Assembly: GCA_948144175.1 (NCBI GenBank)
Contig: CANXME010002087.1
Span: 744,001 to 808,000 of the forward strand
From: Closterium sp. NIES-65
Lineage: Eukaryota; Streptophyta; Zygnematophyceae; Desmidiales; Closteriaceae
Direction: 5' to 3'
Length of the DNA stretch: 64,000 bases
Shown: positions 3,176 to 62,255 of the stretch, in pieces
Position numbering within the stretch: position 1 is the stretch's first letter
Layout of the letters: every line of letters begins with the position of its first letter
Made by a program: the position numbers and the translations under genes
Notes under the pieces: model-generated
Database searches by the model: none
Told to the model about the DNA's origin: nothing
What the model saw: the letters and a program-made list of their open reading frames with translations, nothing else

Positions 3176-3221
3176 CGGGCAGGAAAAAAAGGTGGTGGGC
3201 CCTAGGAACAGTTCCCACAGG

Positions 3222-3364
3222 GGAACCTGCTCGATACTATGAGAAAATGAACGAGAATGAAATGACTAAGTGAAAGTTGGGTACAAGTGCAAACCCTAGA
3301 AAGCTGTACCCCATATGTGCTACCCCACTATAGCCTACAGCAGCTATGTCATATAAATCTCACA
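3222..3364 (-). repeat. 5' LTR (3240-3364) and primer site of element A
   Basis: The 125 bp LTR corresponds to the 127 bp LTR of D. Read in element orientation it carries a TTTATATGAC TATA-like block near its start and the CTATAGTGGGGTA core. Its outer end reads TCTCACA where the family has TCTGACA. The adjoining primer site (about 3222-3239) is a damaged TGGTATCGAGCAGG. Confidence 0.85.
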
Positions 3365-4104: not shown

Positions 4105-4109
4105 GTACG

Positions 4110-4559
4110 TGTTAGAGTGAGGACCTTGGATAGGTTAGGAATGCCTTGTTGTAAGAACTCGGATCATAGTGAATGTAAATGACCAAGTTGATTAAAAACA
4201 CAGATTACACACACGATAAATAGTTCCTAACTAGCCATGTACTCTGAGGGGTACATTCCCTTATTATAACTGTCTTACAGGCATTTCTACAGTGACTCTG
4301 ACCGTTGCACTACTTTCTTATTACCGAGTCGCTGCATGTAACCTGTATATACGGTTACGCCTGTTGCCATTCCTCGATGATGAGTCAAGCGTCGGTCCAG
4401 ATGGTCAACACTCGCGACAGTTGACTTCTTGCAACTATTGACCTTCCTGCCCTTGATACGGGCTGATCCGATACTACGGTTGTTGCACTCCGACAGGGAC
4501 TGGTGCGATACTGCTGTACCCACGGGAATGCTAGGTATAATTCCCTTTATACTCCAACA
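4110..4559 (-). repeat. 3' LTR of element E
   Basis: 450 bp, TG...CA ends, matching 18648-19270. It lacks a 26-bp segment (AGAGTTTGGTAGCGG and following) present in the other LTR. The polypurine tract lies immediately inside, at 4560-4571. Confidence 0.93.
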
Positions 4560-4566
4560 ATCCCCT

Positions 4567-24500: not shown

Positions 24501-27168
24501 GCCACCGCTCTTCCTTGTGCCAGGTCCCCCCCTGGTAGACCCCCTTCCCCCTCAGGGTCCAGCCCCTTCGGGTGTGTCCCAGGTAGACGCAGTTGAGTCT
24601 GCTGAGGTAGCTGGTGACTCTGGTGCTGCTGAGGGTGCTGAGCCTGAGGGTGCTGACTCTGGGGGTGCTGAGCGTGTGGGTGCTACGCGTGGGAGTGCTG
24701 AGCCTGAAGGTGCTACGACTGGGGGTGTTGAGCCTGGGGGTGCTGAGTCTGGGGGTGCTGAGCCTGGGGGTGCTACGCCTGGGGGTGCTGAGCCTGGGGG
24801 TGCTACGCCTGGGGGTGCTACGACTGGAGGTGCTGAGCCTGGGGGTGCGGAGCCTGAGGGAGCTGGGCCTGCTCGTGTGGCGTCTGGTGCGGCCGTACTT
24901 CGTTCCGCTCCTTGAGCAGGTTCTTGGTCTCCCGCATCCTACTGTTCCTCCTCCTCCCTTCGAGTGTCCACAGCCTGTCCCGTCACAGTTACAGTTACAG
25001 CCGGCCTCCCCACTGCCTGCTGCTTCTCCCTACACTGGTCCTACTGGAGGTCTTACTGAGCGTCGTGAGCCTGTGTCTCGCCCTGCGTCGCCCATCCGTC
25101 CTGGTCTCACTAGTGGTCGTGGTTCGCGTCAGCGTCCTCCTCCTGTCCCTGGCACGCACCGGATGTCTCTGCGTCCGTCCACTGCTCCTCTGCGTGCCCC
25201 TTTGCTCCTCCTGAATCCTCCTCTGACTTCTCCTCCTGAGTCCTCTCTTCCTGCTCTTCCTGACTCGGAGTCGGACTCTCTTTGTGCTGCTAGTCCTAAT
25301 GTCACACGTCTCCTTGCTACTGTTGTCACTGACTCTTCTTTGAGTCCACTGCTGCGTCTGCCCTAGTTGTTGAGCTCGTCGACTTTGCTGCTCGCAATCG
25401 TCTAGACTACGCTGCTAGTCTTGTTGCTGAGCCTGAGTCTGTCTGTCCTCTGTCCGTCGGGGGTGAGTGTGCCCTTGGCACGGACGTTCTTGAGGACAAG
25501 CAGGAGGAGTTTCAGTGCTTGGCCGCTGCTTCACCTCATCTCGTGTCCGTACTGCTTACCCCTGAGGGAGACCCGGATGCACTTGACATCCCGACTCCGC
25601 GCTCTTATGCGAAGGCGATAGAGGGTCCCTACTCCTCTTAGTGGCAGGTTGCTATGGACGCAGAGATGGCTTCCTGGAAGTCCACAGGCACCTACGTTGA
25701 CGAGGTTCCCCCGCCTGGGGCGAACATCGTCAGTGGCATGTCGATTTTCAGGGTGAAGCGGTCGTCGGGTTCTCCGCGTGTCATCAAGGCGCGTTACGTG
25801 GCTCGTGGCTTCAGTCAGCGGCAGGGAGTTGACTACTTTCAGACCTTCTCTCCCACCCCGAAGATGACCACTCTTCGGGTACTGCTGCACATAGCTGCTC
25901 ACCGTGACTACGAGCTGCACTCTCTTGACTTCAGCACTGCTTTCTTGCAGGGCAGCCTGCACGAGGAGATGTGGCTGCGTCGCCCACCTGGCTTCACTGG
26001 GACTTTTTCTCCTGGCACCCAGTGGAGCCTCCGGCGGCCAGTCTACGGTCTCCGCAAGGCATCGCAAGAGTGGCACGACACACTGAGGACTACACTTGCG
26101 GCTCTTGGGTTTGCTCCCTCTACTGCCGACCCGTCGCTGTTTCTGCGCACCGACACCTCTTTGCCGCCGTTCTACATCCTCGTGTACGTCGACGACTTGG
26201 TCTTTGCCACAGCTGACACTACCAGACTCGCCCACGTGAAGTCCGAGCTGCAGAAGAGACACACGTGCACAGACCTGGGTGAACTGCGCAACTACCTTGG
26301 CTTGCAGATCACCCGGGACAGAGCACGCCACACCATTACCCTGACTCAGTCACACATGGTGCAGTAGGTCCTTCAGCGCTTCGGCTTCACGTACTCCTCG
26401 CCTCAGGCCACTCCTCTGCCTAGTCGCCACTCGCTCTCAGCTCTGCCTTCGGATGAGTCCGTAGAGTCGAGTGGCATGTATCCAGAGCTTGTTGGCTGCC
26501 TCATGTACCTGATGACCTGCACACGACCTGACCTTGCATACCCTCTTAGCATTCTCGCACGCTATGTTGCTCCTGGGAGACACAGACCGGAGCACATGGC
26601 TGCAGCGAAGAGGGTGTTGCGCTACTTGTGCAGTACGTCCGGCATGGGGCTTGTGCTTGGAGGGCAGAGTCCAGTGGTCCTCACTGGGCACCCAGACGCT
26701 TCTTGGGCTGACGACCAGGCTACGCAGCGGTCGTCACAGGGTTACACCTTCAGCCTTGGCTCCGGCTCTATTTCGTGGCGGGCTACCCGCTCGTCTTCTG
26801 TTCTCGGCTCTAGTTGTGAGGCTGAGATCTGCGCAGGGGGTCTGGCTGCACAGGGGCTTTGCTGGCTCACCTACCTGCTGACTGACCTCGGAGAGCCGCC
26901 TCGTTCTCCTCCAGTGCTGTACGTAGACAACAAGGCCATGCTGGCCTTGTGTCGGGAGCAGAGATTGGAGCACAGAATGAAGCACATTGCTCTTCGCTAC
27001 TTCCTTGCTCGTGAGCTACAGCAGCGTGGTCAGCTGCGCCTTGCGTACGTGGCCTCTGAGGCCAACACTGCTGATATCTTCACCAAGGCGCTTGCGCCTT
27101 GTGATCATCAGCGCTTCTGTACTCAGCTGGGTCTTGTGCGTGCCTTGCCTCACTTGGTCACCCCTTGA
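21569..27168 (+). pseudogene. Decayed copia gag-pol of element D
   Basis: The start is ATG 21569. TAA at 21650 (codon 28) ends gag immediately. The open gag stretch 21785-23302 has polyglycine (22375-22565), the finger with its last Cys changed to Tyr, and the protease variant DSGPSYSFF. A 10-nt deletion near 23256 shifts frame. Integrase (23300-24250) keeps HHCC, MDVWGP, HSDRGGEF and QNGIAERR. The linker has at least 12 GAEPG/GATPG pentapeptides and then a deletion of about 400 bp near 24885. A 1-nt loss lies near 25342, and TAG codons are at 25639 and 26365. RT retains YVDD. RNase H ends at TGA 27166-27168. Confidence 0.92.
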
Positions 27169-44777: not shown

Positions 44778-47700
44778 TCACGTAAAGGACACGGAAGTTA
44801 TATGTTCTTGAAGCTCCCCGTAAGGCGATGCCATTGATGGCATTAATGGAGAACTGATAAGGGAGCTCCACTGTTCAAATTTCAGCGACAATATCCATGG
44901 CGGATGCATGGAGGCGGAGAGCGACGAGGTGTCAGAGGGCGGGGTGGGCGACGAGCGGCCGGACACCGACCCGTACTCCGTCTTCCACTCGGCCAGCGAC
45001 AGCTCCTCGTAGAACACCACATCCGACGTGGTGACCACCCGGTCGGCGTCGACGTCGAGGAGCTCCCAGCCCTTGCTCGCCGCCGACACGCCAAGGTGCA
45101 GGCCCCACCTGGCCTTCGGCTGCAGCTTCCCACCACGCTGCTGCTCGGTGACTAAGAACTGCGCCATGCAGCCCCACACCCGTGCCAGCGACAAGTCGGG
45201 CTTCTTCCCGGTCAGCAGTTGGTACGGCGTCGTCCCCGGCGGCAGCGCCGACCTCTCAAGGCAGTTGCGGACCCAGACGGCCTGCCGCAGAGCGAGGTGC
45301 CACCAGTGGTGCTGCACGCCCATGTGCAGCAGCATTGTCCGCACCGACTCCACCACCGTCCTCATCTCCCGCTCCGCCATGCCGTTCTGCTGCGGGGTGT
45401 ATGGGCAGGTCAGGTCGTGGACGATCCCCTTGCCGTTCACGAAGTCGGTGAACTGCTTCCCGAGGAACTCCCCTCCCCGGTCAGAGCGCAGCGTTAACAC
45501 CGACCTCTTCGTCTGCCGCTCAGCCACTGCCAGCCACTGCACGAACGCCGGCAACGCATCTGACTTCTTTGTGACCGGCTTCACCCACACGTAGCGGGTC
45601 TTGCGGTCCTTCAGCAACAAGAAGTACAGGCTGCCATCCTTGGCAGCCACGCGGAATGGCCCGCACAGGTCGATGTGCACGACGGCCAGCACATCGTCGG
45701 CGTCGGAGCCTTGGTCGGGGAAGGTGTGCCGCGCCAGCTTCCCGCCGACGCACGAGACACACGGAGAGTCGGCGCCCGTCGCCGACTTGGGGTCCAGCCC
45801 AATGGCGACCTCGTTCTTCGCCGAGCTCCGTATGGTGTCCATGCCGACATGTGCAAGCCGGGCATGCATACGGTCCGGCGTCGACTTCCTCTTCGAGACG
45901 ATCGCCCGCAGAGCCACAACCTCCGTCGTGGGCGACGTCGACCTCGTTGAGCAGGGACGCAGGTCGGTGCAGAGGACACGCCCGGAGTACGTCGCCCGAC
46001 CGAGCACCTCTCCCGTTGCCGAGACGAGCACCATCCCGTCGCCGTCCTCTTGCAGCTTCACGCCGTGCTCCTTAAGCTGGCCGGACGACAGCAAGTTCGC
46101 CCGCACACCCGGGACGTACAACACGTCGGGGATGAGCACCTGCTTCCCGGCCTCCCCTTGCAGGGCGACGGTGCCGCTGCCCTGAACGTCCTGCAGCGCC
46201 CCATTGAAGCCGCGCACGTGCTTGATGGAGCCACTCGGCTGCAGGTCAACGAAGGCTTCCTTCGTTCCCATCAGGTGGTGGGAGCAACCGCTGTCGAGCA
46301 GGACCACCGCCGGGTTCGCCTGCACAGCCGCCGCCACCGCCTGGAAGTCCTCTCCGGCCTCCGGCGCCAGAGAGATGGTCGGCTCCACGACGCCGACCAG
46401 CGAGCACGACGCCATTTTGTCGTCTCGCCCCTTGCCGCCTGCAACGGAGTCGGCGTCCTTCGCCGAAGTCGATGCCTTGGTCGACTGTTTCTCCTTGCGC
46501 GGATGATTTCCTCCACGACGAGGACGACGGCTGCCAGACCTCCCGCGGCCGCCCTTGTCGTCGTCGTCGGAGTCACTGCGGTCGGGACAATCGAAGGAGA
46601 GGTGATCGGGGCTGTGGCAGATCCAGCACTCCCGACGTCGACCTCCTCCTCCTCGACCGCCGTCCTTGGTCGACTTCTTCTCGACCTCCTTGGTCGACTT
46701 CCAGCCACCGCTCCCGCCGCCACCAGACTGTCCGCGCTGTCCTGGTCGGCCTCCATGTTTCGCAGGGGCGACGAAGTTGGCCTGCGCCAAGAGCTCCTGC
46801 GATCGCTCAGCCTCCTGCATCGCCTCGTCCTGCAGGATGTATGAGGTCAGGTTGTCCTCGTTGAGCATCGCCCTTGTGCTCGGCGCCATAGACAGCCGCT
46901 TCAGCAGGTTGTAGCTGCTAGAGAGACCCTGCATGACATGGGTGATGTACGACGCCGTGGAGTACTGCGCGCCGGCCATCCTGATGGTGGCGAGAATTCG
47001 CCTGGCTCGGTTGCAGTAGTCGGTCGCACTCTCCTCGTCGCCCATACGCAGGTGTGTCAGCTGTCCCTCCAGCTGGGCGATGAACAGGTCGTCGGTGACC
47101 TGGTACGTCGACTCAATGAAGTGCCACGCCCGGTGGCCAGCGTCGAGGTACTCCCGGCACCACTTCAAGGCGATCTGCACGCCCGGCGAGCAGCACCGCG
47201 AGATGACCGTGAAGGTCAACAGCTGCACGGCGCGAAACTCCGCACGCAGGTCGGGGTGGTGCTCACTCGGCGTCGCCACGGTCCCTCGGGCGAAGCCGAT
47301 CAGCCCGGCCATCTCTAGCTGGGGCTCGATGGCTTCCTTCCAGGTGAGAATGTCGGGTCGACCGACCAGCGGAGGGGTGACCGAGATCCTGTCCGGCGTA
47401 AACTTGAAGTAGCCGTAGCTCGGTGCAATCCCACCTGCCGTCACCTGGGACGCCGTCATCGGCGACAGCCCACTTCGACGCCCACCGCCGTCACCATGTG
47501 AGGAGCCTGCAGCCACCGACGACTGCATCCCTCTCGCCTGAACGCCGCCGGCTTCACCGGCGTGTATCACACCTCGTTGCCTCGACGTGCCTCCCACACT
47601 GCTGCCGACCTGACCTCCACCGGCGTTGACGCCCACATCGACGCCGCCGTCGTTGTTCACCGGTCGAGGAGAGGCAGGTCGAAAAGGGGGATGCTCCGCC

Positions 47701-47834
47701 GCCCACACGGAGCGGAGTCCGGCCTCGACGACTGCCCAGGGTATCGCCCCATACTCCTGGGCCTCATGGCGTCTCCTCGCATCCTCCAACCGTCCCTCCA
47801 GAGTGTCCATCACCTCGGCGTCGCCTACGCGCAC
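44778..47834 (-). CDS. Copia J gag-protease-integrase polyprotein, no RT/RNase H
   Basis: An uninterrupted frame of 1018 residues. The gag domain (about 130-380) includes LTWKEAIEPQLEMAGL and FIAQLEGQLTHLRMGDEESA. There is a CX2CX4HX4C zinc knuckle (CWICHSPDHLSFDC, about 400), an acidic/basic Ser-Asp linker and protease VVLLDSGCSHHL (about 511). Integrase zinc is MHARLAHVGM...CVSC. The DD-E core comprises HIDLCGPF (about 720), RSDRGGEF and QNGMAERE (about 820), followed by the usual RVWGCMAQF domain. The frame leaves homology near residue 975 (about 44900), and no RT follows. The lineage differs from the polyglycine copia group. It is probably a truncated insertion; a retained host-coding frame is a weaker alternative. 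Confidence 0.88.
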   Translation of the reverse strand: MRVGDAEVMDTLEGRLEDARRRHEAQEYGAIPWAVVEAGLRSVWAAEHPPFRPASPRPVNNDGGVDVGVNAGGGQVGSSVGGTSRQRGVIHAGEAGGVQARGMQSSVAAGSSHGDGGGRRSGLSPMTASQVTAGGIAPSYGYFKFTPDRISVTPPLVGRPDILTWKEAIEPQLEMAGLIGFARGTVATPSEHHPDLRAEFRAVQLLTFTVISRCCSPGVQIALKWCREYLDAGHRAWHFIESTYQVTDDLFIAQLEGQLTHLRMGDEESATDYCNRARRILATIRMAGAQYSTASYITHVMQGLSSSYNLLKRLSMAPSTRAMLNEDNLTSYILQDEAMQEAERSQELLAQANFVAPAKHGGRPGQRGQSGGGGSGGWKSTKEVEKKSTKDGGRGGGGRRRECWICHSPDHLSFDCPDRSDSDDDDKGGRGRSGSRRPRRGGNHPRKEKQSTKASTSAKDADSVAGGKGRDDKMASCSLVGVVEPTISLAPEAGEDFQAVAAAVQANPAVVLLDSGCSHHLMGTKEAFVDLQPSGSIKHVRGFNGALQDVQGSGTVALQGEAGKQVLIPDVLYVPGVRANLLSSGQLKEHGVKLQEDGDGMVLVSATGEVLGRATYSGRVLCTDLRPCSTRSTSPTTEVVALRAIVSKRKSTPDRMHARLAHVGMDTIRSSAKNEVAIGLDPKSATGADSPCVSCVGGKLARHTFPDQGSDADDVLAVVHIDLCGPFRVAAKDGSLYFLLLKDRKTRYVWVKPVTKKSDALPAFVQWLAVAERQTKRSVLTLRSDRGGEFLGKQFTDFVNGKGIVHDLTCPYTPQQNGMAEREMRTVVESVRTMLLHMGVQHHWWHLALRQAVWVRNCLERSALPPGTTPYQLLTGKKPDLSLARVWGCMAQFLVTEQQRGGKLQPKARWGLHLGVSAASKGWELLDVDADRVVTTSDVVFYEELSLAEWKTEYGSVSGRSSPTPPSDTSSLSASMHPPWILSLKFEQWSSLISSPLMPSMASPYGELQEHITSVSFT

Positions 47835-47904
47835 GCTAGTGACTTCACGGCTGCCGGTCTACGAACACGATCGGTATGTGCTAAGTCGGCTAGACTGAAC
47901 TACG

Positions 47905-48150: not shown

Positions 48151-49110
48151 GTCGACTGCCAGCACAGCATGGTCGACCGCGTTCCAGCACGACTTGGTCG
48201 ACCACGCTACAGCAGTGCAAAGTCGACAGCTTGCCAACGCTGCAGGTTGACGGTGTGCCAGCATTGCTCACGCAGGACAGCAGTGCACCCGCTTTGCAGG
48301 TGCGCGCAGATGATTGGGATGCAAAGTCTCGTCACCTGCACAGCGCACACACCACGTCAACCTCGGGCTAGCGACTGCCTCTGATCCGCCACGACGACCT
48401 CGGGATACCACCATGGAGGTCGGTCTCGCCAACTTCGCCTGGGTGACCGTCGCACTCCTTCGCAGAAACTCGTCACCCAGGTATCCTGGTCGACCGGGCA
48501 ACTATGTCGACCAGCTGCTCCTGTATGTGCTCGTCGACCTCCCAAGTCGACAACCACACCAGGTCGACCTCACCAGGTCGACCACTCCTCCGGTCGACCA
48601 GATCCAGGTGGACGTCACTCCTGGTCGACCAGTGCAGTTGTCAGCTACCCAAGTCGGCGTCACCAGGTCGACGCCCCTTCTACGTCGGCGCCGACTTCCA
48701 GACTGACCTCTTGAAGTTGGCGACCTCCCAAGTCGGCGACCTTGCAAGTCGGCGCCGACTTGCAAAGTCGGTGACCTTGCAAGTCGGTGACCTTGCAAGT
48801 CGGTGACCTTGCAAGTCGGTGACCTTGCAAGTCGGTGACCTTGCAAGTCGGTGACCTTGCAAGTCGGTGACCTTGCAAGTCGGCGCCGATTTCCAGGTCG
48901 ACGTGCCACATCGCCGACCACCAGTTGAAGTCGGCCGCTGGCTTCCCAAGTCGGCGGTATTGCAGTGGCGCCGTGCAAGTCGACCAACCCCGTCGACCAG
49001 CTCGTCCAAGTCGGCGTCGCCCACTGCTGCAAGTCGGCTGTACCTTCCGTACACCCCACCACGAAGTCGGCTCCGCCCAAGCGTGGACGGGGCCAACACA
49101 CAACTCCCGT
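48145..49110. repeat. GTCGAC/AAGTCGGC-rich satellite-like array
   Basis: Nearly 1 kb in which GTCGACC, AAGTCGGCG and AGGTCGACC words recur every ~10-20 bp, giving a diverged short-period array. It joins J to the truncated end of gypsy I. Long antisense frames (KVTDLQGHRLARSPTC repeats) are shadows that read through from the gypsy pol. Confidence 0.75.
48765..48876 (+). repeat. Seven perfect 16-bp tandem repeats
   Basis: The unit AAGTCGGTGACCTTGC is repeated seven times without a mismatch, flanked by degenerate units with GGCGCCGAC on both sides. It sits at the centre of the GTCGAC-rich array. Perfect identity implies recent expansion. Confidence 0.95.
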
Positions 49111-52070
49111 TGACAGGTGCGCGGTGACAGGTGTTATCATATGGCTAATTCGAAATGGCCTGCAGTATCGAGGGCGGAGTTTGGGGGTGATGGGCAGGCA
49201 GAGGTTTTGAGTGTCGAGTAAAACGAGGTCGTCGGGCTGGTAAGTGACAAGTCTGCGGTGGCGGTCAGCGTTGCGTTTAGCGATGATGTTTGATTTATTG
49301 ATTGCTTCTGCTGCCCTGGTTCGTGCTGCTTGCAAAATCTCAGTGAACTGTTGTGCGCGTGGAACGGGGTTGTCGGGATTCGGGGTCATGGGTACTGTTG
49401 GGTCTTGTCCGTAATTCAGGTAAAATGGTAAATGTTGGGTCGTGGCGGATGGGGCGTTGTTGTATGCGAATTCGATGAGTGGCAGTTGCTGTTCCCACGT
49501 GTTTGGATCATCACACGTGGCCCTAATGAGCTGTTCCATGGTCTGGTTTGTCCGTTCGATCTGTCCGTCGGTTTCGGGGTGATACGATGAACTGAACTGT
49601 AGGCGCGTGCCGAACTGCTGCCACAGATTCCGCCAGAAGCTGCTAGTAAACTTCGTGTCTCTGTCGCTGATGATTGATGCTGGTATCCCGTGTAGTCGAA
49701 CGACGGTAGAGATGAAGAGGCGGGCTGTTTCTTCGGCTGTGATTGATTTCTTGCAGGCTGCGAAGTGTGCCATTTTCGTCAGTCGATCGACAACGACCAG
49801 GATTGCGTCATTCCCTCTCGCCCCGGCCGGTAACCCCGTGACGAAGTCCATCGTCACTTGCTGCCAAGCACGCTCTGGAGGTGGGATTGGTTGCAACTGT
49901 CCCGCCGGCCGCTTCTGGGTTGACTTCATGATCTGGCAAGTGGGACACGATGCCACGTGTCGTTGCACGTCGGTCAACATTTCGGGCCAGTAATAGTACC
50001 GCTGCAGCTGCTGCCGTGTTTTCTCGACTCCGAAATGTCCCGAGGTAACTCCGTCGTGTGCCTCCTGTAACAGTAATTCCCGTTGTAGTGTGTACCCTGG
50101 TACCCAGATGCGTTCGGTCCCAGCTTTTGCGTAATAGACTCCCTTGGCTGCTGCGAATTGCTGCAAGTTTCCTCCTATGAAGAATGGATCTGTTTGATAT
50201 CCGTGGGTAAATAGTCCTGTCAGTAGCGGGCTGATCTGGGCGAGTAGTATCGCATGGATCTGGGTAGTGGGGCGGGTCAGTGCGTCGGCGATATTCGAGG
50301 CTCCTTTTTTATAGGTGACCGTATAATGGAAATTTGACTCGAGGAAATCGAGCCACCGAATCTGTCGTGGGTTGAGGTGGGGCTGTGCACGGAGGTACTG
50401 TAGGGATCGATGGTCTGTCCGTACTGTTATGTCTGCGCCGGTCAAGTAGCAGCGCCACACCTTGAATGCATGCACGATCGCGAGCATTTCGCGGTCGTGT
50501 ATCGGGTAATTTTGTTCAGGCGGATGCAGTTTTCGTGATTCGTAGGCGATGGGCTGGAGGCCGTTGCCGAAGTCTTGTAACAGTACGGCTCCAATGGCGA
50601 TGTCGCTTGCGTCTGTAACAACTTCGAAGGGGCGATGTGGGTCAGCGATGCGTAGGACGGGTGGTGAACAGAGAACATGTTTCAGGGCAGAGAAGGCAGC
50701 ATGCTCTTTCTCCCCCCATGTAAAAGCGACCCCCTTGCGTAGTAAATCTGTTAGCGGGGCTGTTAATCGTGCCATGTCGGGGACGAACCGACGAACGTAA
50801 TTAACGAACCCTAAAAAACTCTGCACCTCCGTGATGTTCGTCGAGGGATGCCACGCTTTTACGGTATCCATCTTCTTGGGGTTGATTTCAACCCCAGCTT
50901 CCGAAATAACGTGCACTAAAAATTCTAGCCTATCCCAAAAAAACTCGCACTTGGAGCCCTTGGTGAGTAACCGATGTTCCTCTAAAATTTTAAACACTGC
51001 TTCGAGATCGACTAAGTGTTGCTGCTGGTCGCGACTGTAAACGAGGATGTCGTCGAGGTAAACTATCACGCATTTATCTAAAAGTGGCCTAAACGCCTCG
51101 TTCATGGTCATCTGAAATGTTGCGGGCGCATTGGTCAGCCCGAAAGGCATCACCGTGTACTCGAATGACCCGTACCTAGTCCTAAATGCTGTCTTGGCGC
51201 AGTCCGATGGTTCGACCCGAATTTGATGGTAACCCCCCATAAGTCTATTTTCGAAAATACCCATGCTGTTCGCAGCTGGTCGATCAATTCGTCGGCGCGG
51301 GGGATGGGGTATCGTGATTTGACTATTACTCTGTTGAGCGCTCGGTAATCAATGCACATGCGAAATCCTCCGTCTTTTTTCGGTGTGAACAGTATCGGTG
51401 CGGCGAACGGTAACGAGCTCGATCGGATAAACTGCTTCTCTAACAAATAATCTAACTGCTTCCTTAGTTCGTCGAGCTCGGGCTGTGTCAGTCTGAACTG
51501 GCGCTGTACAGTTGGCTGTGCCCCCGGTTCTAACTCGATCCTATGGTCATGCGCCCGCTGAGGTGGCAGTCCTTGCGGTAAATCGTCTGGAAAAATCCCC
51601 GGGTACCGTTTCAACAGATCCTCTGCCAACAGTTTCTGAAAATCGCTCGGCTGCTCCTCTTCTCCTACTAGTGCTATATCCACTGCGTACACATCAGCTC
51701 TCGCGGCAACAACCCGTTTCATCGTGATGGCGTTGACGTGGACCGTTGAAGACTCGGGTGACCGCCAAGGAGGTAGTTCGACCCAGTTACCACTACTTCG
51801 CACAGTGCAGCTACCCGTCGTCCAGTCAATTCGCGGGTTATACCGTCGCAGCCAATCACGTCCCAATAAAATGTCGTGCCCATCCCGTGTCGTGGCGAGC
51901 ATTTCCTGTGTAAACCTGAAGTTCCCTCCGCAGCGGATTTTTACTCGCTCCACCTTTTCCCGTATGGCCAGTGGCGTGCTGTCGACTAAGCGTGCGTCTA
52001 TCTCAGGTAAGCAGCGGTTAAGTGTTAACTGCAGTTTCCGTGCGGTCGCGGTATTAACTAAACTGTGATT
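49110..52070 (-). pseudogene. Gypsy protease(C-terminal)-RT-RNase H-integrase
   Basis: The segment resumes immediately after the H2 insertion within the retropepsin ([21 protein letters not shown]). RT has [25 protein letters not shown] and the active site VIVYLDDILVYSR. A 1-nt deletion near 51255, between SKIDL and GGYHQIRV, splits the frame. RNase H: FEVVTDASDIAIGAVL, HDREMLAIV and RTDHRSLQYL. Integrase zinc: GHFGVEKT...CPTCQ. Core: TMDFVTGLP, SDRDTKFTS, HPETDGQIERTNQ. No chromodomain is visible before truncation. Confidence 0.9.
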
Positions 52071-52191
52071 TGTCAAATTATAATATTGTGCAGGCTATAG
52101 TGGGGTAGCCTATATGGGGTCCACATTTCTAGGGTTGCATATTTGTATCACTTCCATTCCTTAGTCATTCATTCTCGTTCTCATTTTCTAA
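52071..52191 (+). repeat. 5' LTR of element H2
   Basis: 121 bp, TGTCAAATTATAATATTG..., with CTATAGTGGGGTAG and TTTCTAGGGTTG. The last bases CTAA are mutated from CTCA. Confidence 0.92.
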
Positions 52192-53310
52192 TGGTATCGA
52201 GCAGGTTCCCCTAGGGAACTGTGCCTAGGGCCCACCAAAGTTCGAATTTTTTTTTCCTGCCCGAAGCGCGCTCCGCCCGAGTCGCGCTCTCACCTCGTCG
52301 AGCCGCCCTAGCGGCCCCTATGCCCTAGCGCCCCTCCCTACCTTAGCGGCCCCGTCGCCCGTTCGTGCGGCCCCGCCACCTACTAGCGTGGCCCCGCCAC
52401 CCGCATTCGCGGCCCCGCCGCCCTACGTCGCGACCCCGCCGCCCTAACTGCGGCCTCGCCGCCCTACTCCTGCAGCCCCGCCGCCCTACTTCGCGGCCCC
52501 GCCGCTCTACGTCGCGGCCCCGCCGCCCTGTTCAGCGGCCCCGCCGCCCCTCTTCGCGGCCCCGCAGCCCCACTTCGCGGCCCCGCCGCCCTGCTTCAGC
52601 GGCCGCGCCGCCCGTCTGCTGCGGCCCCGCCGCCCCACTTCGCGGCCCCGCCGCCCTTCTTCAGCGGCCCCGCTGCCCGTCTGCTGCGGCCCCGCCGCCC
52701 CACTTCGCGGCCCCGCCGCCCCACTTTGCGGCCCCGCCGCCCTACTTCAACGGGCCCCGCCGCCCTACTTCAGCGGCCCCGCCGCCCTACGTCTGCGGCC
52801 CCGCCGCCCGTCTGCTGCGGCCCCGCCGCCCTACACCTGCGGCCTCGCCGCCCTACTTCAAGGGCCCCGCCGCCCTACTTCAAGGGCCCCGTCGCCCTAC
52901 TTCACCGGCCCCGCCGCCCTACGTCAACGGGTCCCGCCGCCCGTCTGCTGCGGCCCCGCCGCTCTCCCCTCCTACAGCAACGCGCCCGAGCCGCAGACCG
53001 CCGCGCCGCCCTGTACCAGAGGAGCCGAGCCGCCCTGCCCCCGAGCCGCCCGGCCCCCCCACCAGCCGAGCCGCCGTGCAGCCGAGCCGCCCAGCCGCCG
53101 AGCCGCCGAGCCGCGGAGCCGCCCAGCAGCCGAGCCGCCCCGCAGCCGAGCCGCTGAGCCGCCCAGCAGCTGAGCCGCCCAGCCGCCGAGCCGCCCAGCC
53201 GCCGAGCCGCCCTACAGTTGAGCCGTCCGAGCAGCCCTGTCCGGTGAGCACAGCCTCTCTCTCACTGCGTGCCCTTCCCCTACTGCTTGCACTGCTAGTC
53301 TACCGTCGTC
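52192..53310 (+). repeat. Primer site and minisatellite leader of element H2
   Basis: About 52340-52970 is an array of GCGGCCCCGCCGCCCTACTT-like 18-22 bp units. About 53030-53220 is GAGCCGCCC units. The 319-residue Arg/Pro frame through it is a repeat shadow. Confidence 0.82.
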
Positions 53311-54345
53311 ATGGCTACCCCTAGTGTCCTCGCTTTTGACGCTGAGGGTCGAGCCATTGACTTTGAGGTCTGGGTCGACGACCTGCAGCTGTTCTTACAG
53401 TGCGATAGGGCGGACGGTCTTTCTCTCTTTCACCTCACCTCTGGCGCCTCTCCTGCCCCTGCTGCTGATGCTGATCCCACTGTTCGCTCTCAGTGGGCCA
53501 CCCGCGATGCTGCTGCACGTCTTGCTGTGCGTCGCCACCTGCCTACCACTGAGCGCGCGCACTTTAGTCTGTACAAGAGTGCTCAGACCTTGTACGACGC
53601 TGTAGTTGCGCGCTACTCTTCCCCTGCCACTGCTGCACTGAGCCGCCTCATGCTACCGTACCTCTTCCTTGACCTTGCTGCATTTCCTACAGTTCATGAC
53701 CTCATTACGCACCTCCGCACTAGTGACACTCGCTACCGCGCCGCGCTGCCTGCTGAGTTCTACGCCAAGAACCCCCCCCCCATGTACATCACTCTCTATT
53801 ACATAGTCACCCGCCTCCCTGACTCCCTTCGCGTAGTCAGGGACCACCTTCTCTCAGTCTGTCCCACCAATCTCACTGTTGACCTCCTAGAGAAGGCCCT
53901 CCTAGCTGCGGAGAAGAGCATAGTCGCTGTAGGAGCCTCTTGTGGTGACCCTCGCACCCCCATCTTTGAGGGGTGTTCCCCTTCCCCCCTGTTGCCCTCT
54001 GTCGCCTCTGTTGCTGCGGCCGACCTACTTGGTCTTGAGTCGGTCGGTGTGGCGTCTGCCCCTAGCGGGAGACGCCGCTCTGGCAAGGGCAAGGGAGGCA
54101 AGGGCGCGGGTGGATCTAGCGGGGGTGGTGGAGGTGGCGGTGGAGGCGGCGGAGAGAGTGGGGGTGGCGGTGGGAGTGGTGCCGGGGGTGGAGGTGGCTG
54201 TGGCAGCGGCGGAGGCGGAGGCAGCGGTGGCGGTAGCGGTGGGAGCGGAGGCGGCGGTGGCGGCGGAGGTGGAGGCGGCGGTGGTGGAGGAGGTGGAGCT
54301 GGTCGAGGTGGTACTTTTCAGCAGAGCGGCTCCTGGGGTGGTCAG

Positions 54346-54377
<32 letters not shown>

Positions 54378-57300
54378 TTCTCGGGACATCCCCCCTCCTC
54401 AGCAGCTCCGTGAGTGGTACACGCAGCGTCAGCGTGGTGGGGGTTTTGGCCCGTGCACCTACGTCCTCCACTCCGGCGACCGCACGGGTGAGCAGTGTGG
54501 GGGTGCTCACCCCACCCAGCGCTGCTTTGGCCGCCTGACGGACGCTTGGCGTCAGCAGTTCCCCGAGGCTAGTGAGATCCCCCGCTGGGGAGAGCTGTCT
54601 AGGGCAGGTGTAGCTATCTATGATCTTGACTTTGATGCTATCCTTGCTGCCATGTATGCTGTGACTATTAGTGATGAGGGTGACTGTTACCGGTGTTTCC
54701 CGCCCAACCCAGGCATTGGTACTGCTGCGCTAGGTGCTTGTGAGGCTGCTGCTCTAGGTGCCAGCGCGTTTGCGCCCTCAGGTACTGGTGAGGCTGCGCT
54801 CTCAGGTACTGCATCGGCTTCAGCCTCCCTCACCTTCACACTTGACTCGGGGGCTTCTCGCTCCTTCTTTCGAGACCGCACCACACTCACGCCGCTTGGT
54901 CGGCCGGTTGCAGTCTCCCTGGCAGATCCCTCTGGGGGTCCTGTCCTCTCTCACTTCTCTACTGTCCTCCCATGTCCGACTGCCCCCTCTGGCACCTTGT
55001 CTGGTCTTTGCCTCCCCTCGTTCTCGACGAACTTGGTGAGTGGTGCTGACCTGCAGGATACGGGGGTTCATCAGTTCACTCCTGCGAGTCAACGGGTGAC
55101 CCACTACGTGGACGCTCGGATAGGCCGACACCTGGCCACGTTTACTTGTCGGCCGGGGTCGAGCCCGTACACACTGACCACTGAGTCTCCTCCAGTCACT
55201 GCGTCTGGTCAGGTAGCTGCGTCGGGTCAGGTGTTTGCTGCTGCGTCCAGGTCTGGTCCTGAGTCTGCCCCCTGCTCGTGTCGCCTCCTGTCTCACGAGA
55301 CTCTCCTCTGGCACCACCGTCTTGGTCACCCCTCCCTGCCTCGTGTCTGAGGCATGGCTTCCCGTGTCCTTGTCTCTGGTCTTCCCCGGTCCCTCCCTCC
55401 CCTTCCTCCGGGGCCTGGTCCTTCCTGTGTCCCCTGTGTCGAGGGGCGGCTCCGAGTTGCCCCTCACTCCTCTCAGTTTCCCCCGACAGAGGCCCCGCTG
55501 CAGGCGCTTCACATGGACGTGTGGGGCCCGGCCCGCGTCCGTGGACCGGGTCACGAGCGCTACTTCCTGCTGGTGGTTGACGACTACTCGCGTTACACCA
55601 CAGTCTTCCCCTTGCGCAGCAAGGGTGATGTCGCTGAGGTGTTGATCGACTGGATCCGCGCAGCTCGTCTCCACCTCAGGAGGAGCTTCGGCTCGGACTT
55701 TCCTGTTCTGCGTCTGCACTCTGACCAAGGCGGAGAGTTCTCCTCTGGCCTTCTACGAGCCTACTGTCGTGCGCGAGGCATCCGCCAGACCTTCACGCTT
55801 CCGGACTCTCCACAGCAAAATGGGATTGCTGAGCGCCGCATTGGCATGGTCATGGACGTCGCTCGTACGTCTATGATGCATGCGGCTGCCCCCCATTTTC
55901 TGTGGCCGTTTGCGGTTCGGTACGTGGCGCTTCAGATCAACCTTCACCCCAGGGTCTCCAGACCGGAGACCTCCCCAGCCTTGCTGTGGACGGGGAAGGT
56001 CGGCAATGCGTCTGCGTTCCGTGTCTGGGGATCTTGGGCGTTTGTACGCGACCTGTCTGCGGACAAGCTGTCCCCTCGTGCTGCTCCCTGTGTCTTCCTT
56101 AGCTTCCCCCCTGACGCCCCTGGGTGGCAGTTCTACCACCCCACCTCTCGTCGTGTTCTGTCCTCCCAGGACGTCACGTTCGACGAGTCAGTACCCTACT
56201 ACCGCCTCTTCCCCTACCGCACTCCTTCCCTCCCCCCGCCACCGCAGTTCCTTGTGCCAGGTCCCCCCCCGGTAGACCCCCTCCCCCCTCAGGGTCCTGC
56301 CCCTTCAGGTGTGTCCCAGGTAGATGTAGTTGATCCAGTCAAAGTTGCTGGTGACTCAGGTACTGCTGCGGGTTCTGAGCCTTGGGGTGCTGACTCTAGG
56401 GGTGCTGCGCGTGTGGGTGCTGAGCCTGGAGGTGCTGCGTCTGGGGATGCTGCGACTGGGGGTTCTGAGCCTGGGGGTGCTGGGCCAGGGGGTGCTACGA
56501 CTTGGGGTGCTGAGCCTTGGGGTGCTACGACTGGGGGTGCTGAGCCTGGGGGTCCTTCGCCTGGGGGTGCTGCGTCAGGAGCTGCTGAGCCTGGGGGTGC
56601 TGAGTCTGGAGCTACTGAGCCTGGGGGTGCGGAGCCCGCGGCCGCTGGACCTGCTCGTGTGGCGTCTGGCGGTGCTGGGCCTGCTGGTTCTCCGGGTGCT
56701 TTGTCTCGGCGGGAGCCACTCTCTCCACAGGAGCTGCGCGAGTGGTTTGCCCGGCGCTGGAGGCGTACTACTGGAGCTGGTGCTTCTTCGGATGCTGAGG
56801 GTGCTGGTGCCGCCGGTCTCGGAGGTGCTAGTCCTACGAGTGCTACTTGAATCGGAGCTGCTGAGGGTGTTGGCGCTGAGGCTACTTCTGTCAGTCCTGG
56901 CGGCGGTCCTCCTGCGGGTGCTACTGGTACTGGAGCTGGAGGTGCTGTTGACGCTGGTGCTGCCGCTGGGGGTGCTGGTGCTGTCCCTGCTGTGTCTGGA
57001 GTCGCCGCGCGACCTCGGCCGTACTTTGTTCCGCTCCTTCAGCAGGTTCTTGGTCTTCCTCCTCCCTTAGAGTGTCCACCGCCTGTCCAGTCGCAGTCAC
57101 AGTTACCGCCGGCCTCCCCGCTGCCCTCTCCTTCTACGTACACTGGTCCTACTGGAGGTCTTGCTGAGCGTCGTGAGCCTGCGTCTCGTCCTGCGTCGCC
57201 TGTTCGTGCAGCTCGCACTAGTGGTCGCAGTTCGCGTTAGCGTCCTCCTCCTGTCCCTAGCACGCACCGGATGTCTCTGCGTCCGTCCACTGCTCCTCTG

Positions 57301-59255
57301 CGTGCCCCTTTTCCCTCTCCTCTTGAGTCCTCTCTTCCTGTGCTTGTTGACCCTGAGTCGGACTCTCTTCGTGCTGCCAGTCCTACTGTCACGCGTCTCC
57401 TTGCTACTGTCGTCACTACCCCCTCCTTTGAGTCCACTGCTGCGTCTGCTCTTGTTGCTGAGCTCGTCGACTTTGCTGCTCGTTGTCGTCTAGACTACGC
57501 TGCTAGTCTTGTTGCTGAGTCTGCGTCTGTCTGTCCTCCGTCCGTCGGGGGTGAGTGTGCTCTTGGCACGGACGTCCTTGAGGACAGGCAAGAGGAGTTC
57601 CAGTGTCTGGCTGCTGCTTCACCTCATCTCGCGTCCGTACTGCTTACCCCTGAGGGAGACCCGGATGCACTAGACATCCCGACTCCGCGCTCTTACGCGG
57701 AGGCCGTAGAGGATCCCTACTCCTCTCAGTGGCAGGCAGCTATGGATGCAGAGATGGCTTCCTGGAAGTCCACAGGCACCTACGTTGACGCGGTTCCCCC
57801 TCCTGGGGCGAACATCGTCAGTGGCATGTGGATCTTCAGGGTGAAGCGGCCGCCGGGCTCTCCACCTGTCTTCAAAGCGCGGTACGTGGCTCGTGGCTTC
57901 AGTCAGCGGCAGGGAGTTGACTACTTTCAGACCTTCTCTCCGACCCCAAAGATGACCACTCTTCGGGTGCTGCTACACGTAGCCGCTCAGCGTGACTACG
58001 AGCTTCACTCCCTTAACTTCAGCACTGCTTTCCTGCAGGGTAGCCTGCACGAGGAGATCTGGTTGCGCCGTCCACCTGGCTTCACTGGGACTTTCCCTCC
58101 TGGCACCCAGTGGAGCCTCCGACGGCCAGTCTACGGTCTCCGCCAGGCACCGCGCAAGTGGCACGACACACTGAGGACTACACTTGCGGCTCTTGGGTTT
58201 GCTCTTTCTACTGCTGACCCGTCGCTGTTTCTAGCACCGACACCTCTTTGCCGCCGTTCTACATCCTCGTGTACGTCGAAGACTTGGTCTTTACCACAGC
58301 TGACACTGCTGGACTCGCCCACGTGAAGTCCGAGCTGCAGAAGAGACACACGTGCACAGACCTGGGTGAACTGCGCAGCTACCTTGGCTTGCAGATCACC
58401 CGGGAGAGAGCACGCCGCACCATTACCCTGACTCAGTCACACATGGTGCAGCAGGTCCTTCAGCGCTTCGGCTTCACGTACTCCTCGCCTCAGGCCACTC
58501 CTCTGCCTACTCGCCACTCGCTCTCAGCTCTGCCTTCCGATGAGTCCGTAGAGTCGAGTGGCCCGTACCCAGAGCTTGTTGGCTGCCTCATGTACCTGAT
58601 GACCTGCACACGACCTGACCTTGCATACCCTCTTAGCATTCTTGTACGCTATTTTGCTCCTCGGAGACACAGACCAGAGCACATGGCTGCAGCGAAGAGG
58701 GTGTTGCGCTACTTGTGCAGTACGTCGGGCATGGGGCTAGTGCTTGGAGGGCGGAGTCTAGAGGTCCTCACTGGGAACGCGGATGCTTCTTGGGCAGACG
58801 ACCAGGCTACGCAGTGGTCGTCACAGGGTTACACCTTCAGCCTTGGTTCCGGCTCTGTTTCGTGGCGGGCTACTCGCTCGTCTTTTGTTCTCGGCTCCAG
58901 TTGTGAGGCTGAGATCTACGCCGGGGCCATGGCTGCACAGGAGCTTCGCTGGCTTACCTACCTGCTGACTGACCTCGGAGAGCCGCCTCGTTCTCCTCCG
59001 GTGCTGTACGTAGACAACAAGGCCATGCTAGCCTTGTGTCGGGAGCAGCGCCTGGAGCACAGAACGAAGCACATTGCTCTCCGCTACTTTCTTGGTCGTG
59101 AGTTGCAGCAGCGTGGTCAGTTGCGACTTGCGTACGTGGCCTCTAAGGCCAACACTGCTGATGTTTTCACCAAGGCACTTCCGCCTTGTGATCATCAGCG
59201 CTTCTGCACTCAGCTGGGTCTTGTGCCTGTCTTGCCTCACTTGCTCACCCCTTGA
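53311..59255 (+). pseudogene. Decayed copia gag-pol of element H2 with mutated RT active site
   Basis: From ATG 53311 the frame is open for 679 codons: gag, polyglycine 54115-54300, Gln run, finger CX13CX3HX4C at 54454-54525, and protease LDSGASRSFF. TGA 55348 (CGA to TGA) falls in the HHCC region. Integrase follows in the same frame (MDVWGP, HSDQGGEF, QNGIAERR), then the linker, TGA 56848 and TAG 57238. RT motif A reads SLNFSTAFLQG, with the catalytic Asp changed to Asn at 58015. A small deletion at about 58232 shifts frame. The catalytic box is YVED (58272-58283). RNase H is intact to TGA 59253. Confidence 0.93.
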
Positions 59256-59463
59256 CCTTGCTTGTACTCTTACATATATTTATACACCTGCTCTTGCTTG
59301 TTTAGCCTTATATATATATGTGTACTCCTGCATGTGAACTGGCCTTGTGGCCTTTACCTTGTGCTCGGACTGTGTGGTGACGTTGTGATCCACCCTGAGC
59401 TTTGTTTGCTTTGCTTGACTGGCTTGTGACCCCTTGTTCTCCCCCACTTTGCCTATGGGGGTG
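59256..59463 (+). promoter_or_regulatory. Conserved 3' UTR and polypurine tract of element H2
   Basis: Shared block ending CCCCCACTTTGCCTATGGGGGTG against the 3' LTR, with TATATATATATG near the pol stop. Confidence 0.75.
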
Positions 59464-59584
59464 TGTCAAATTATAATATTGTGTAGGCTATAGTGGGGTA
59501 GCCTATATGGGGTACACATTTTTAGGGTTGCATATTTGTATCACTTCCATTCCTTAGTCATTCATTTTCGTTCTCATTTTCTCA
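59464..59584 (+). repeat. 3' LTR of element H2
   Basis: 121 bp, five differences from 52071-52191. Confidence 0.92.
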
Positions 59585-59799
59585 TGACTTGCTCCTCCGT
59601 CAATAAAAATCTTCACTGCTGCTCCCTGTATCTTCCCGTAGATCAGTACTGGGCAATCCGTCGGTGTACCCTCCTTATTCATCCAAGCCCGATCGATGGC
59701 GTGAATCGGTACTGTGACTCGGTGAGGGTCGGTACGGTTGGGCGAGTAGGCAGTCTTGTCAGTAGTTGGCCCAACTTCTACTGACTGCTGGCGTTTCCC
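59585..59799 (-). pseudogene. Gypsy pol N-terminus: start of protease, cut by H2
   Basis: This frame overlaps the end of gag and is entered by -1 frameshifting at 59799-59793. It encodes GKRQQSVEVGPTTDK and then the retropepsin motif VKIFIDGGASH, ending where H2 is inserted. The remainder continues at 52070. Confidence 0.85.
59758..59799 (-). promoter_or_regulatory. -1 ribosomal frameshift signal at gypsy gag/pol junction
   Basis: The minus strand has the slippery heptamer G-GGA-AAC (59799-59793), correctly phased with the gag frame. A 7-nt spacer (59792-59786) follows. Then comes a perfect 8-bp stem GTCAGTAG/CTACTGAC (59785-59778 with 59765-59758) around a 12-nt apical part that can extend the helix. 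The gag stop TAG (59780-59778) lies in the 5' arm. Slipping -1 enters the pol frame exactly. Confidence 0.85.
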
Positions 59800-60956
59800 T
59801 GCCTCTGAGACTGTCTCCCCTGCTCTGCTCCGCGGCGCCTCAGCTCCTCTGGGCATTCGCTATTGCGATGGCCCGGCCTGTTGCAAGCAAAGCAGCGCCC
59901 CTTGAACGGTGCGGCAGCTGCATTCGTTGCGACGGCGTGTACAGTGGCGTGTTCGGTCGGTCCCCAAGGGCGATGTCCGTAGTAGGACCCCGGTCTCAGT
60001 TGGCGTAGAATGTCGATTTTCTCGGCGAGCGCGAGAATCTCGTTGAAGTTAGAGAGTCCGCGCAGCATGATTTCGTGCGAGGTATCCGGCTTCAGCCCTC
60101 CGATGTAACGGTCCACCCGCTCCGCTTCGTGCATGTAGCCGACCTGTTCGCAAAGTGCGAGAAAACCGCTTGTATAATCTTGAACCGACCCGAGCTGGCG
60201 CCAAGTGCGCAATCTCTGACGCGCCGAAATCGAAGCCGCGATCGGCTCGAAGCGCGCCCGTAGTCCTGCGCACCACGCATCCCACGTGCTGTATTGGGCG
60301 GTCTCGCAGAACGAACTCCAGGTGACAGCTGGACCCGTGGGCCCTTCCTCGTGCGACGGTGGCTCGTAGGCGCGTGGCGATGTCACGATGACTCGCCACC
60401 AGTCCATGGCGGGGCCCCTTAGCAGCGAAACTGCATACCGGATCTTCGCGGCGTCCGACTCGACGTAGTTTGCGTCGAAGAAGACGTTCATCGTGAAGAC
60501 CCACGATTGAACCGTCGGACCTCCGCGTTGGCTTGGGTCGAAGCAGGGCGGGCGTTGCGGCTTGAGCGGCATTGGTGCCATAATGGCCTGTTCGCCACTT
60601 GTTGCCGCAAATTCCACGTGCCGACGGGCTACCTGGGGCTCCCGCGGGCTTGGTGTGATCTTGCCTCCCCCCATGCCAGGCATCGGCTGGGCGGCGCCAT
60701 CACTGGCTGCGCCTGAGCGTTGTACCATGCTGTCGTGTTGTGTTGGTGTGCCGGACGAGATGATGATCGGCTCGTCCGATTGTGCAGATGCATTTGTCGG
60801 TGCATGTGGTGTCGCCGAAATGTTCACCGTGGATTGTTAACGGGCAGAGTCACGTTCCGCCGTGAGCGTCGCGATTTCGAGCGCCGAATCTTCTAGTTGA
60901 CGCACGAGACGATCAAGCTGCTCCTGCGTCAACGTGGCGAGCGTGAAATCGGCCAT
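59778..60956 (-). pseudogene. Gypsy gag of element I, one internal stop
   Basis: The start is ATG 60956 (MADFTLATLTQEQLDRLVRQLEDSALEIATLTAERDSAR), a short coiled-coil-like N-terminus. TAA (60839-60837) is followed in the same frame by the remaining ~350 residues. Capsid region: VQSWVFTMNVFFDANYV, AWCAGLRARFEP, WRQLGSVQDYTSGFLALCEQVG, YIGGLKP. It ends with a zinc knuckle CX2CX4HX4C (CFACNRPGHRNSEC). The stop TAG is at 59780-59778, inside the frameshift stem. Confidence 0.88.
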
Positions 60957-61124
60957 GGCGGGGGTGTCGGGCAAGCTCAGCGAGAGCCTCGGTCGTGGCC
61001 GTGCGTGCTTACGAGAGAGCACTATGAGCGGCGGTGCTGTATCGCTGAGAGACGTCTACCCCCCCCAAAAAAATGAGATAGTGGGGAAGCGAAAGTGTGG
61101 ATGCGGTCCGAGATGAGATCGTAG

Positions 61125-61137
61125 GCTCTGAATACCA
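61125..61137 (-). promoter_or_regulatory. Primer-binding site of gypsy element I
   Basis: The minus strand TGGTATTCAGAGC is an initiator-Met-type site with one extra base, two bases from the LTR end. Confidence 0.75.
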
Positions 61138-61139
61138 AG

Positions 61140-61480
61140 TGTTATGGGTGCAATTGAGTGGACGAACGAGAATTGCACTATCGAGGCAAGAATACAATGA
61201 GCGAAGGCATGAGCGAAGAATATATAGCGAAACTACAGTGGTAACGGTAATGGACTGTGGTTGTCGTGCGACAAGCCTGGGACTGAGGTTGGGAAAGTGT
61301 CGAAGCGGAGGCCCGGAGCGCGGGTTACCAGCCGAGCCGTGAGGTCGGGGTGCGATGTGCGAAGATGGCGGGATGATTGTCGATGCGAGGATCGCGAGTG
61401 GTAACGGTGCTGACTGAGGTGCTACAGTGAGGTACGCGTTGAGCAGGGATGCGAAGTAAGGAAAAGGGATTTTCCTTACA
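61140..61480 (-). repeat. 5' LTR of gypsy element I
   Basis: About 341 bp with TG...CA ends (plus-strand TGTTATGGGTGC to TTTCCTTACA). TATA-like CTATATATTC on the minus strand lies at about 61219-61229. The boundary at 61480 is inferred because no second LTR is available for comparison. Confidence 0.65.
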
Positions 61481-62255
61481 CGCACCCGTAACTGAGTTGG
61501 ATAATGAGTTGGTCTAATGGGTCTTAGCGACTACAGTCGATGCTCACCTTATCCAGTGTCCAAAGGTCATCCCGATAAAAAAAACAGTCACTCGCGAACT
61601 TTTTTGCCCGTGAGTGACTGAATCGAGCATTGGGGTAGAGTCACCAAGTTGCAGAAGATCGACGTCAACAGTTCAGAAACAACAGAGGTTGCCCGTCGCA
61701 TACGTCATCTTAGCAGGGTTGACCGAGTTACAGCGACTTTTACTAGGTCCCACTTTTACTTTTCAGTCCCATTTTTGTCCGTGGCGACGTGGCGAAGATC
61801 GACGAAATACCCGCTGCCCATTTCAGTCCATTGCCGCCCGCCTACCTGGTATTCTTGAAATGAGCAACGACTGTAGTCCATCATCGGGGAGGATCTGTTT
61901 GGCAGCAATGTAGCTGCGAATGATGTGGCGCGACCTTGTTTGAAGGGGAGCAAGCGCTTGCACCAATGAAATTCACTTTTCCCAAACAGTAAGTGGTTTG
62001 CTATTGGCGCTTTTCAGGTGTTGCGGATCTTTCTTGTTTGTGCAGTGTTCCCCCGGGGCTAACCGCCAACTGGGTACATCCTCCCCTCAACCAAGTCATC
62101 GCTGACCCGCCAATTGTGGTGCTGGTTGCTCGTCGTTTTACTGAAAGACCCCACCGCTCCTGGGGGAACTCTCAACTCGTCGTTTTAGGTTACTTCTCAC
62201 TTCTCTTTCAGCTAGCCTCCATTTCGACCGCAGTGGCGTATAGTAACTTTCCACG
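61481..62255. other. Intergenic region upstream of host gene
   Basis: No supported gene. It contains a hairpin at 61585-61620. The last ~200 bases before the ATG at 62256 are pyrimidine-rich (CTTCTCACTTCTCTTTCAG near 62190-62212, a possible splice acceptor or initiator region) and probably hold the promoter or 5' UTR of the downstream gene. Confidence 0.5.
61585..61620 (+). other. Inverted repeat CAGTCACTC...GAGTGACTG
   Basis: A perfect 9-bp stem, extendable to 12 bp with one G-U pair, enclosing AACTTTTTTGCC. Its function is unknown; the T-rich loop is unlike a standard terminator. Confidence 0.6.

Follow-up and report, generated by a model that had tools for sequence, protein, structure and literature searches.

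A canonical module for -1 programmed ribosomal frameshifting very probably marks the gag/pol junction of a clade of Ty3/gypsy elements in Closterium sp. NIES-65. As judged by sequence comparison, the module is present family-wide and clade-wide together with a conserved pseudoknot, and the copy in the window (the whole stretch of 64 kb that was analysed, with a G+C content of 60%) is a fossil that has kept it. What we infer from this is the slippage of ribosomes itself and its rate, as well as the role of the Gag to Gag-Pol ratio as a selected trait.

The element lies on the minus strand of the window, where gag is followed by pol in the -1 frame. The open gag frame (59778..60836, -) encodes a capsid domain (Pfam Retrotrans_gag, 9e-11) and a CCHC zinc knuckle, the zf-CCHC match of which is below the curated cut-off of Pfam. 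The -1 frame opens at 59859 and runs on into the protease, and the reading frames assign the stretch from there to a copia insertion (59585..59859, -) to the start of pol. The remaining pol, with the end of the protease, reverse transcriptase (RT), RNase H, and integrase, follows past the insertion (48502..52065, -) and has one frame break in RT. Pfam identified RT, RNase H, and the H2C2 and core integrase domains, and the top PDB match for the pol part is Ty3 Gag-Pol (7q5b). The order of gag capsid and zinc knuckle, protease, RT, RNase H, and integrase is that of Ty3/gypsy elements. The inserted Ty1/copia element including its LTRs (52071..59584, +) is flanked by a 5-bp target duplication, TGATT/TGACT, with four of five bases alike. 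It falls into the gypsy protease codons for DGGASH|S, and the protease reads on in one frame across the empty site; a comparison over 123 nt puts the divergence of the two copia LTRs at about 4%. In addition, a nonsense codon interrupts gag at 60839-60837 (-). Its nonsense codon, its broken RT frame, and the nested copia element mark the gypsy copy in the window as dead. The gag frame is open from stop to stop for 404-425 codons in six of seven other 4.1-kb loci (L002-L008), versus 352 codons in the window, and thus the stop in the window gag is not general. For this copy no gypsy LTR pair was found, since the region 60950-62100 has no second copy in the window; likewise, a 3' LTR was not found within the window, and a Pfam chromodomain was not found in the window copy, whose integrase frame enters repeats. 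These are tandem repeats at 48500-49150 (-), into which the gypsy frame passes after the integrase, with a unit like 'DLQGHRLARSPTCKVT'. A sequence-only reading had ascribed a frameshift signal to this element; its heptamer and stem turned out to be kept across families, but the window copy itself is dead. Therefore, decay had to be excluded, and the frameshift claim belongs to the families and not to the window locus.

Copia elements are abundant. A second, different copia-type element (44778-47858, -) has an open frame of 1026 aa with integrase, Pol_BBD, and copia gag. One copia family occurs in the window in four or more direct copies and also in inverted ones, e.g., at 14575-14946, 24531-24992, and 56268-56639, which are about 87-94% identical in the stretches shown and carry a 15-nt tandem array of varying length. 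The motif 'LAAATDNFSDANLLGRGAFG' near 63,650 has a look that we take to be plant-like and receptor-kinase-like; the receptor-kinase-like neighbouring ORFs had no Pfam match at E 0.001. In our judgement the genome size, the G+C content of the window, the many copia elements, and this receptor-kinase-like fragment point to a streptophyte alga as the likely host. Just past the window (L151, 550-2460) lies a long tandem array reading PSLAPPPPAKLGSP, followed at 2790-5000 by a 737-aa open frame that presumably resembles a hAT transposase. The 5 kb past the window, which were read for a host gene, thus contained tandem repeats and this long ORF instead, its hAT-likeness being our assumption.

Near its end, the gag frame on the minus strand reads ...CAG GGA AAC GCC AGC AGT CAG TAG. 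The slippery heptamer G GGA AAC (59793..59799, -) is in phase with gag and is followed by the 7-nt spacer GCCAGCA (59786..59792, -) and by stem 1, which has the 5' arm GUCAGUAG (DNA GTCAGTAG; 59778..59785, -) and the 3' arm CUACUGAC (DNA CTACTGAC; 59758..59765, -). The gag stop UAG (59778..59780, -) forms the final three bases of the 5' arm, 19 nt from the first base of the heptamer. All this had been noticed in the sequence-only reading, i.e., the heptamer in gag phase, the 7-nt spacer, the perfect 8-bp stem containing the stop, and a -1 slip that leads into the protease frame, and it was borne out down to the peptide GKRQQSVEVGP, which the -1 frame indeed encodes. The reading had gone no further than this stem-loop, and in this respect it was incomplete: the 8-bp stem is present, but the structure is a pseudoknot, the second stem of which had been overlooked. 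The 12-nt loop of stem 1 contains GUUGGGC (59769..59775, -), which has a perfect 7-bp pairing with GCCCAAC further downstream (59737..59743, -), and the predicted fold is thus an H-type pseudoknot that ends at 59737, and not a plain hairpin that ends at 59758. In this layout, stem 1 has 8 bp, loop 1 has 2 nt, stem 2 has 7 bp, 3 nt lie between the stems, and a loop of 14 nt (59744..59757, -) crosses stem 1; from the heptamer to the end of stem 2 the signal comprises 63 nt.

Several controls address how easily such an arrangement arises by chance. GGGAAAC is the sole canonical in-frame heptamer in the 353 codons of gag, and it sits in the 82-nt overlap of gag and pol; when the codons were permuted, the probability that the last 27 of gag hold such a heptamer was about 0.02. 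The pseudoknot that follows it ranks best among those of all 224 canonical heptamers on both strands of the window, and an equally good one was found in 0 of 1,500 and 1 of 124,191 dinucleotide shuffles in two runs. A laxer control, which accepted any window position irrespective of a heptamer, found equally good pseudoknots at 16 of 3,196 and 60 of 15,978 positions, counts that may include the real pseudoknot. The rates in this control were higher in G+C-rich stretches, and 5 of 3,375 positions were found in the same G+C bin. Taken together, the junction exhibits the features of a canonical -1 signal, namely, an X XXY YYZ heptamer in the 0 frame, a stimulator at a distance of 7 nt, and an overlapping -1 ORF with a conserved protein. 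A search of the Rfam frameshift families gave no match at the gathering score, and three sub-threshold matches were to unrelated families (E up to 10).

A sample of the same family (family A) consisted of the best 40 of 3,318 candidates in the genome (874 Mb, 2,400 contigs); these best-scored copies are the most similar ones, 96-100% identical, and include the window copy. In the sequence-only reading it had been suggested that the frame relationship, heptamer, and stem be compared between copies. GGGAAAC is present in all 40 copies, gag and pol are never in one frame, and from the zinc knuckle through to where the pseudoknot ends all 40 are free of indels. The 5' and 3' arms are unchanged in 39/40 and 40/40 copies for stem 1, and in 38/40 and 38/40 copies for stem 2. 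The position of the gag stop is the same in 38 of 40 copies, and two have an earlier stop. Within the family, heptamer and stem are kept as the comparison had asked; the four changes in the arms of stem 2 occur in four separate copies and are uncompensated. Variable sites are fewer in the core (5/37) than in the flanks (65/197; Fisher p 0.011, 40 copies). The crossing loop is the most variable part by substitution rate, with 7 of its 14 sites variable among the 40 copies, and much of this is due to the window copy's own differences. Many gypsy copies are dead. One copy has a deletion downstream of the signal (L040) and another one in gag (L018), and the alignments of three copies (L016, L019, L022) stop about 80 nt early, past the signal. 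Read in the -1 frame, the sequence of copy L005 that begins at the heptamer encodes an aspartyl protease (PF13975, 1.2e-9).

Comparison of more distant elements was based on 90 gag loci out of 150 scored PF03732 matches, which in turn came from 4,921 candidates; 30 loci came from the search, and 60 were picked to cover the length and score classes of the listing. An open-frame gag with a zinc knuckle was found in 67 of the 90 loci. A canonical heptamer lies exactly 19 nt before the gag stop in 52 of these 67 loci, and in 54 of the 90 overall (50 GGGAAAC and 4 AAAAAAC); elsewhere in frame, the 13,364 codons of the 67 loci contain a further 15 canonical heptamers. AAAAAAC replaces GGGAAAC at the identical position in one family (L096, L099, L100, L101, L130), which is a natural swap of the slippery site; the stop of this family is mostly UAA, and L099 has an earlier UAG. 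Fifteen of the 67 loci lack a heptamer at 19 nt, and in ten of them gag is truncated, shifted, or stopped early: five have the heptamer at another distance through early stops or shifted frames (L061, L093, L099, L102, L118), and five have truncated or shifted gag ends (L060, L082, L083, L088, L110). Five loci have an intact gag end without a canonical heptamer (L070, L108, L111, L121, L129); they may be dead or may use a weaker site. The longest open frame after the stop is the -1 frame in 49 of the 54 loci with the heptamer at 19 nt, and another frame in five. In one locus from each of the families A-F the -1 frame encodes an aspartyl protease; that of family C also holds the start of RT, and the RT match of family D is below the curated cut-off. 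The identities between families A-F are 31-49% for the C-terminal part of gag (closest pairs 74-76%) and 27-47% for the start of pol (closest pairs 65-90%), and families B-F share the heptamer position and the stem register with the window family. A seventh family, G (L131), shares both as judged by 141-nt stretches; the pattern by which it was found already contains some bases of the stem 1 5' arm. Genome-wide, the pattern GGGAAAC N8 YCAGTAR has 2,332 matches, taken by pattern alone, versus 8 for the reversed control. Searches of viral contigs, genome contigs (gag only), and plasmids for relatives of the element led nowhere.

The pairing of the stems can be followed across the families. If the heptamer starts at position 0, stem 1 has the register i+j=55 in every family, ungapped, whereas stem 2 has 86 in families A, F, and G, 81 in B, and 82 in C, D, and E, a difference that lies in the crossing loop. 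A set of 61 distinct sequences from 106 places was selected for its heptamer, its stop distance, and an upstream gag motif, irrespective of the stems, so that it covers loci with the heptamer; in this set 702 of 732 cells (95.9%) were standard pairs, versus 33.6-46.3% in slid registers; the 12 pairs of this test were selected after seeing which hold. In the seven family representatives 11 core pairs, i.e., pairs 14-18 and 21 of stem 1 and 26-30 of stem 2, are formed in 77 of 77 cells, and thus in 7/7 representatives. For family C the strict finder reports no pseudoknot, and its pairs were counted in the common register. Between families, five of the 11 core pairs have changed on both sides, namely, pairs 14 (G-C/A-U), 15 (U-A/C-G), and 21 (G-C/A-U) in stem 1, and pairs 26 (U-A/C-G/G-C) and 30 (C-G/U-A) in stem 2. 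The number of both-sided changes as such does not single out the true register, which has 6, since slid registers have 1-7. Swapping of the 3' arms among six families gave an equally good result in 20 of 720 permutations, which is only a modest test, because the stem cores are similar between families. The identity among the representatives is 0.88 for the heptamer and 0.79-0.85 for the stem arms, and 0.31 for the spacer and 0.25-0.33 for the loops; the spacer is thus free to vary in sequence, and it has 5-7 nt in the other families. Among 20 stretches with unusual letters the strict finder detected a pseudoknot in 14 and none in six, and 4 of the 14 (L136, L139, L142, L144) use another register for stem 2.

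It could be argued that frameshifting is real, but that the stimulator is a plain hairpin or an alternative nested fold, a view that we regard as improbable. The minimum free energy (MFE) structure of the window copy is indeed a nested fold, GCAGUC/GACUGC around an inner hairpin, and another nested MFE structure is common to 28 of the 40 family copies. The 8-bp hairpin alone has -10.3 kcal/mol, compared to a nested optimum of -13.9 kcal/mol over stretches of 56-70 nt, and the free energy of a 111-nt fold is not unusual (z -0.46, plain MFE). The pseudoknot was estimated at -18.15 kcal/mol, and the nested MFE over the 71 nt after the heptamer ranges from -14.8 to -20.2 kcal/mol in the 40 copies; the energies are rough and come from a basic stacking model that charges a set penalty for a pseudoknot. 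The nested MFE is thus close to the rough pseudoknot estimate, and therefore energy alone is not decisive. The pattern of conservation argues for the pseudoknot: pairs 26-30 of stem 2 are kept in 7/7 family representatives, with exchanges at 26 and 30, while the surrounding sequence is free. In contrast, the nested fold of the window is not shared by most copies, and 9 of the 40 depart from it in the sequence of the outer helix (with a 3' slice off by one base). The nested folds may compete with the pseudoknot and could belong to its dynamics.

Other routes to Pol appear highly improbable, namely, internal initiation, termination-reinitiation, or a spliced RNA, with the structure serving another step, e.g., RNA packaging. 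The window copy does have an AUG in the pol frame at 59856, within the overlap of gag and pol, and EVADE and BARE1 make a short gag RNA by splicing (PMC12786077). However, internal initiation or splicing would leave unexplained the fixed distance of 19 nt between heptamer and stop, the swap of GGGAAAC for another slippery heptamer, and the spacing of 5-7 nt to a conserved pseudoknot. There is next to no chance that the arrangement stems from decay, in which a 1-nt indel would have split an originally single gag-pol frame and left heptamer and stem as coincidences, because, in spite of the gag nonsense codon, the RT frame break, and the nested copia element of the window copy, all 40 family copies share the offset without an indel in the region, and families that are mostly 27-49% identical in protein share offset, heptamer position, and stems. 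Two further candidates were rejected for the window copy. UAG readthrough would continue the gag frame for only 32 codons to the next stop, with the protease in another frame, and the +1 frame closes six codons past the gag stop.

For -1 frameshifting, the mechanism would be as follows. Elongating ribosomes would meet an H-type pseudoknot 5-7 nt past GGGAAAC, or past AAAAAAC in one family, and in a minority of passages the tRNAs in the P- and A-sites would re-pair one base back, so that the slipped ribosome would enter the -1 frame and produce Gag-Pol. Unslipped ribosomes would reach the stop codon inside stem 1, 19 nt from where the heptamer begins, and yield Gag. The predicted outcome is little enzyme protein beside much capsid protein from one messenger. 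A doubtful extension of this mechanism is that the gag stop is itself part of the machine, and that the ratio of Gag to Gag-Pol would be set by termination clearance and ribosome traffic, which would represent a built-in rate sensor throughout the clade. The idea comes from the location of the stop, exactly 19 nt after the heptamer in 52/67 loci and in the upper part of stem 1. Stem 1 and the 5' arm of stem 2 would remain under a ribosome that terminates there, and the pseudoknot could therefore refold only after its release.

In general, -1 frameshifting depends on a heptamer and on a stimulator, in most cases a pseudoknot, with a spacer between them that typically has 6-9 nt (PMC3835772). 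The nearest counterparts are the gag-pro signals of betaretroviruses, which likewise combine GGGAAAC, a 7-nt spacer, and an H-type pseudoknot. Table 1 of that paper lists JSRV, MPMV, SRV-1, SRV-2, SMRV, and HERV-K10 with GGGAAAC, a spacer of 7, S1 of 6, S2 of 6-7, L1 of 1, L2 of 9-14, and L3 of 0 (PMC3835772). The signal of the window family differs in its dimensions, with 8 bp in stem 1, 7 bp in stem 2, 2 nt in loop 1, a crossing loop of 14 nt, and 3 nt between the stems, where the listed viruses have 0. Further differences are the protein kinship, which is with Ty3/gypsy elements, and the number of shifts: the element would need one shift from gag to protease and RT, whereas the listed viruses are said to use two shifts for pro and pol (PMC3835772). 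By analogy, the signal is probably one that works like the betaretroviral gag-pro pseudoknots without being one of them.

With plant Ty3/gypsy elements, both chromoviruses and non-chromoviruses, the element shares the domain order gag-PR-RT-RH-INT. Plant Ty3/gypsy groups have mostly one ORF and two in some (PMC6317226), and several Selaginella elements have a single ORF (PMC3350952). A survey of 2003, as reported in PMC5009743, found pol at -1 in 28 of 51 animal elements, whereas among plant elements just two kinds had separate frames, both with pol at +1; by this account, a -1 gag/pol shift had not been known from any plant element up to 2003 (PMC5009743). The LTR retrotransposons of animals and the gypsy-derived gene PEG10 are alike in having a -1 pol, many with classical heptamers, and PEG10 has a pseudoknot as stimulator, but their hosts are animals (PMC5009743). 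In a review of 2025, ribosomal frameshifting is given as one strategy of two "for plants, animals, and yeast", and the plant examples in the portion at hand are for splicing only (PMC12786077). Searches of open-access literature turned up no account of a plant or algal gypsy element with a -1 signal that includes a pseudoknot. The signal is known in kind and unusual in place, and the place of the module in the plant lineage rests on the host. Between them, the families offer natural variants of both stems and heptamer, among them the swap of GGGAAAC for AAAAAAC, on which the evolution of frameshift signals can be studied. A -1 signal linked to a pseudoknot across families would show that a retrovirus-style recoding cassette persists in gypsy elements outside animals.
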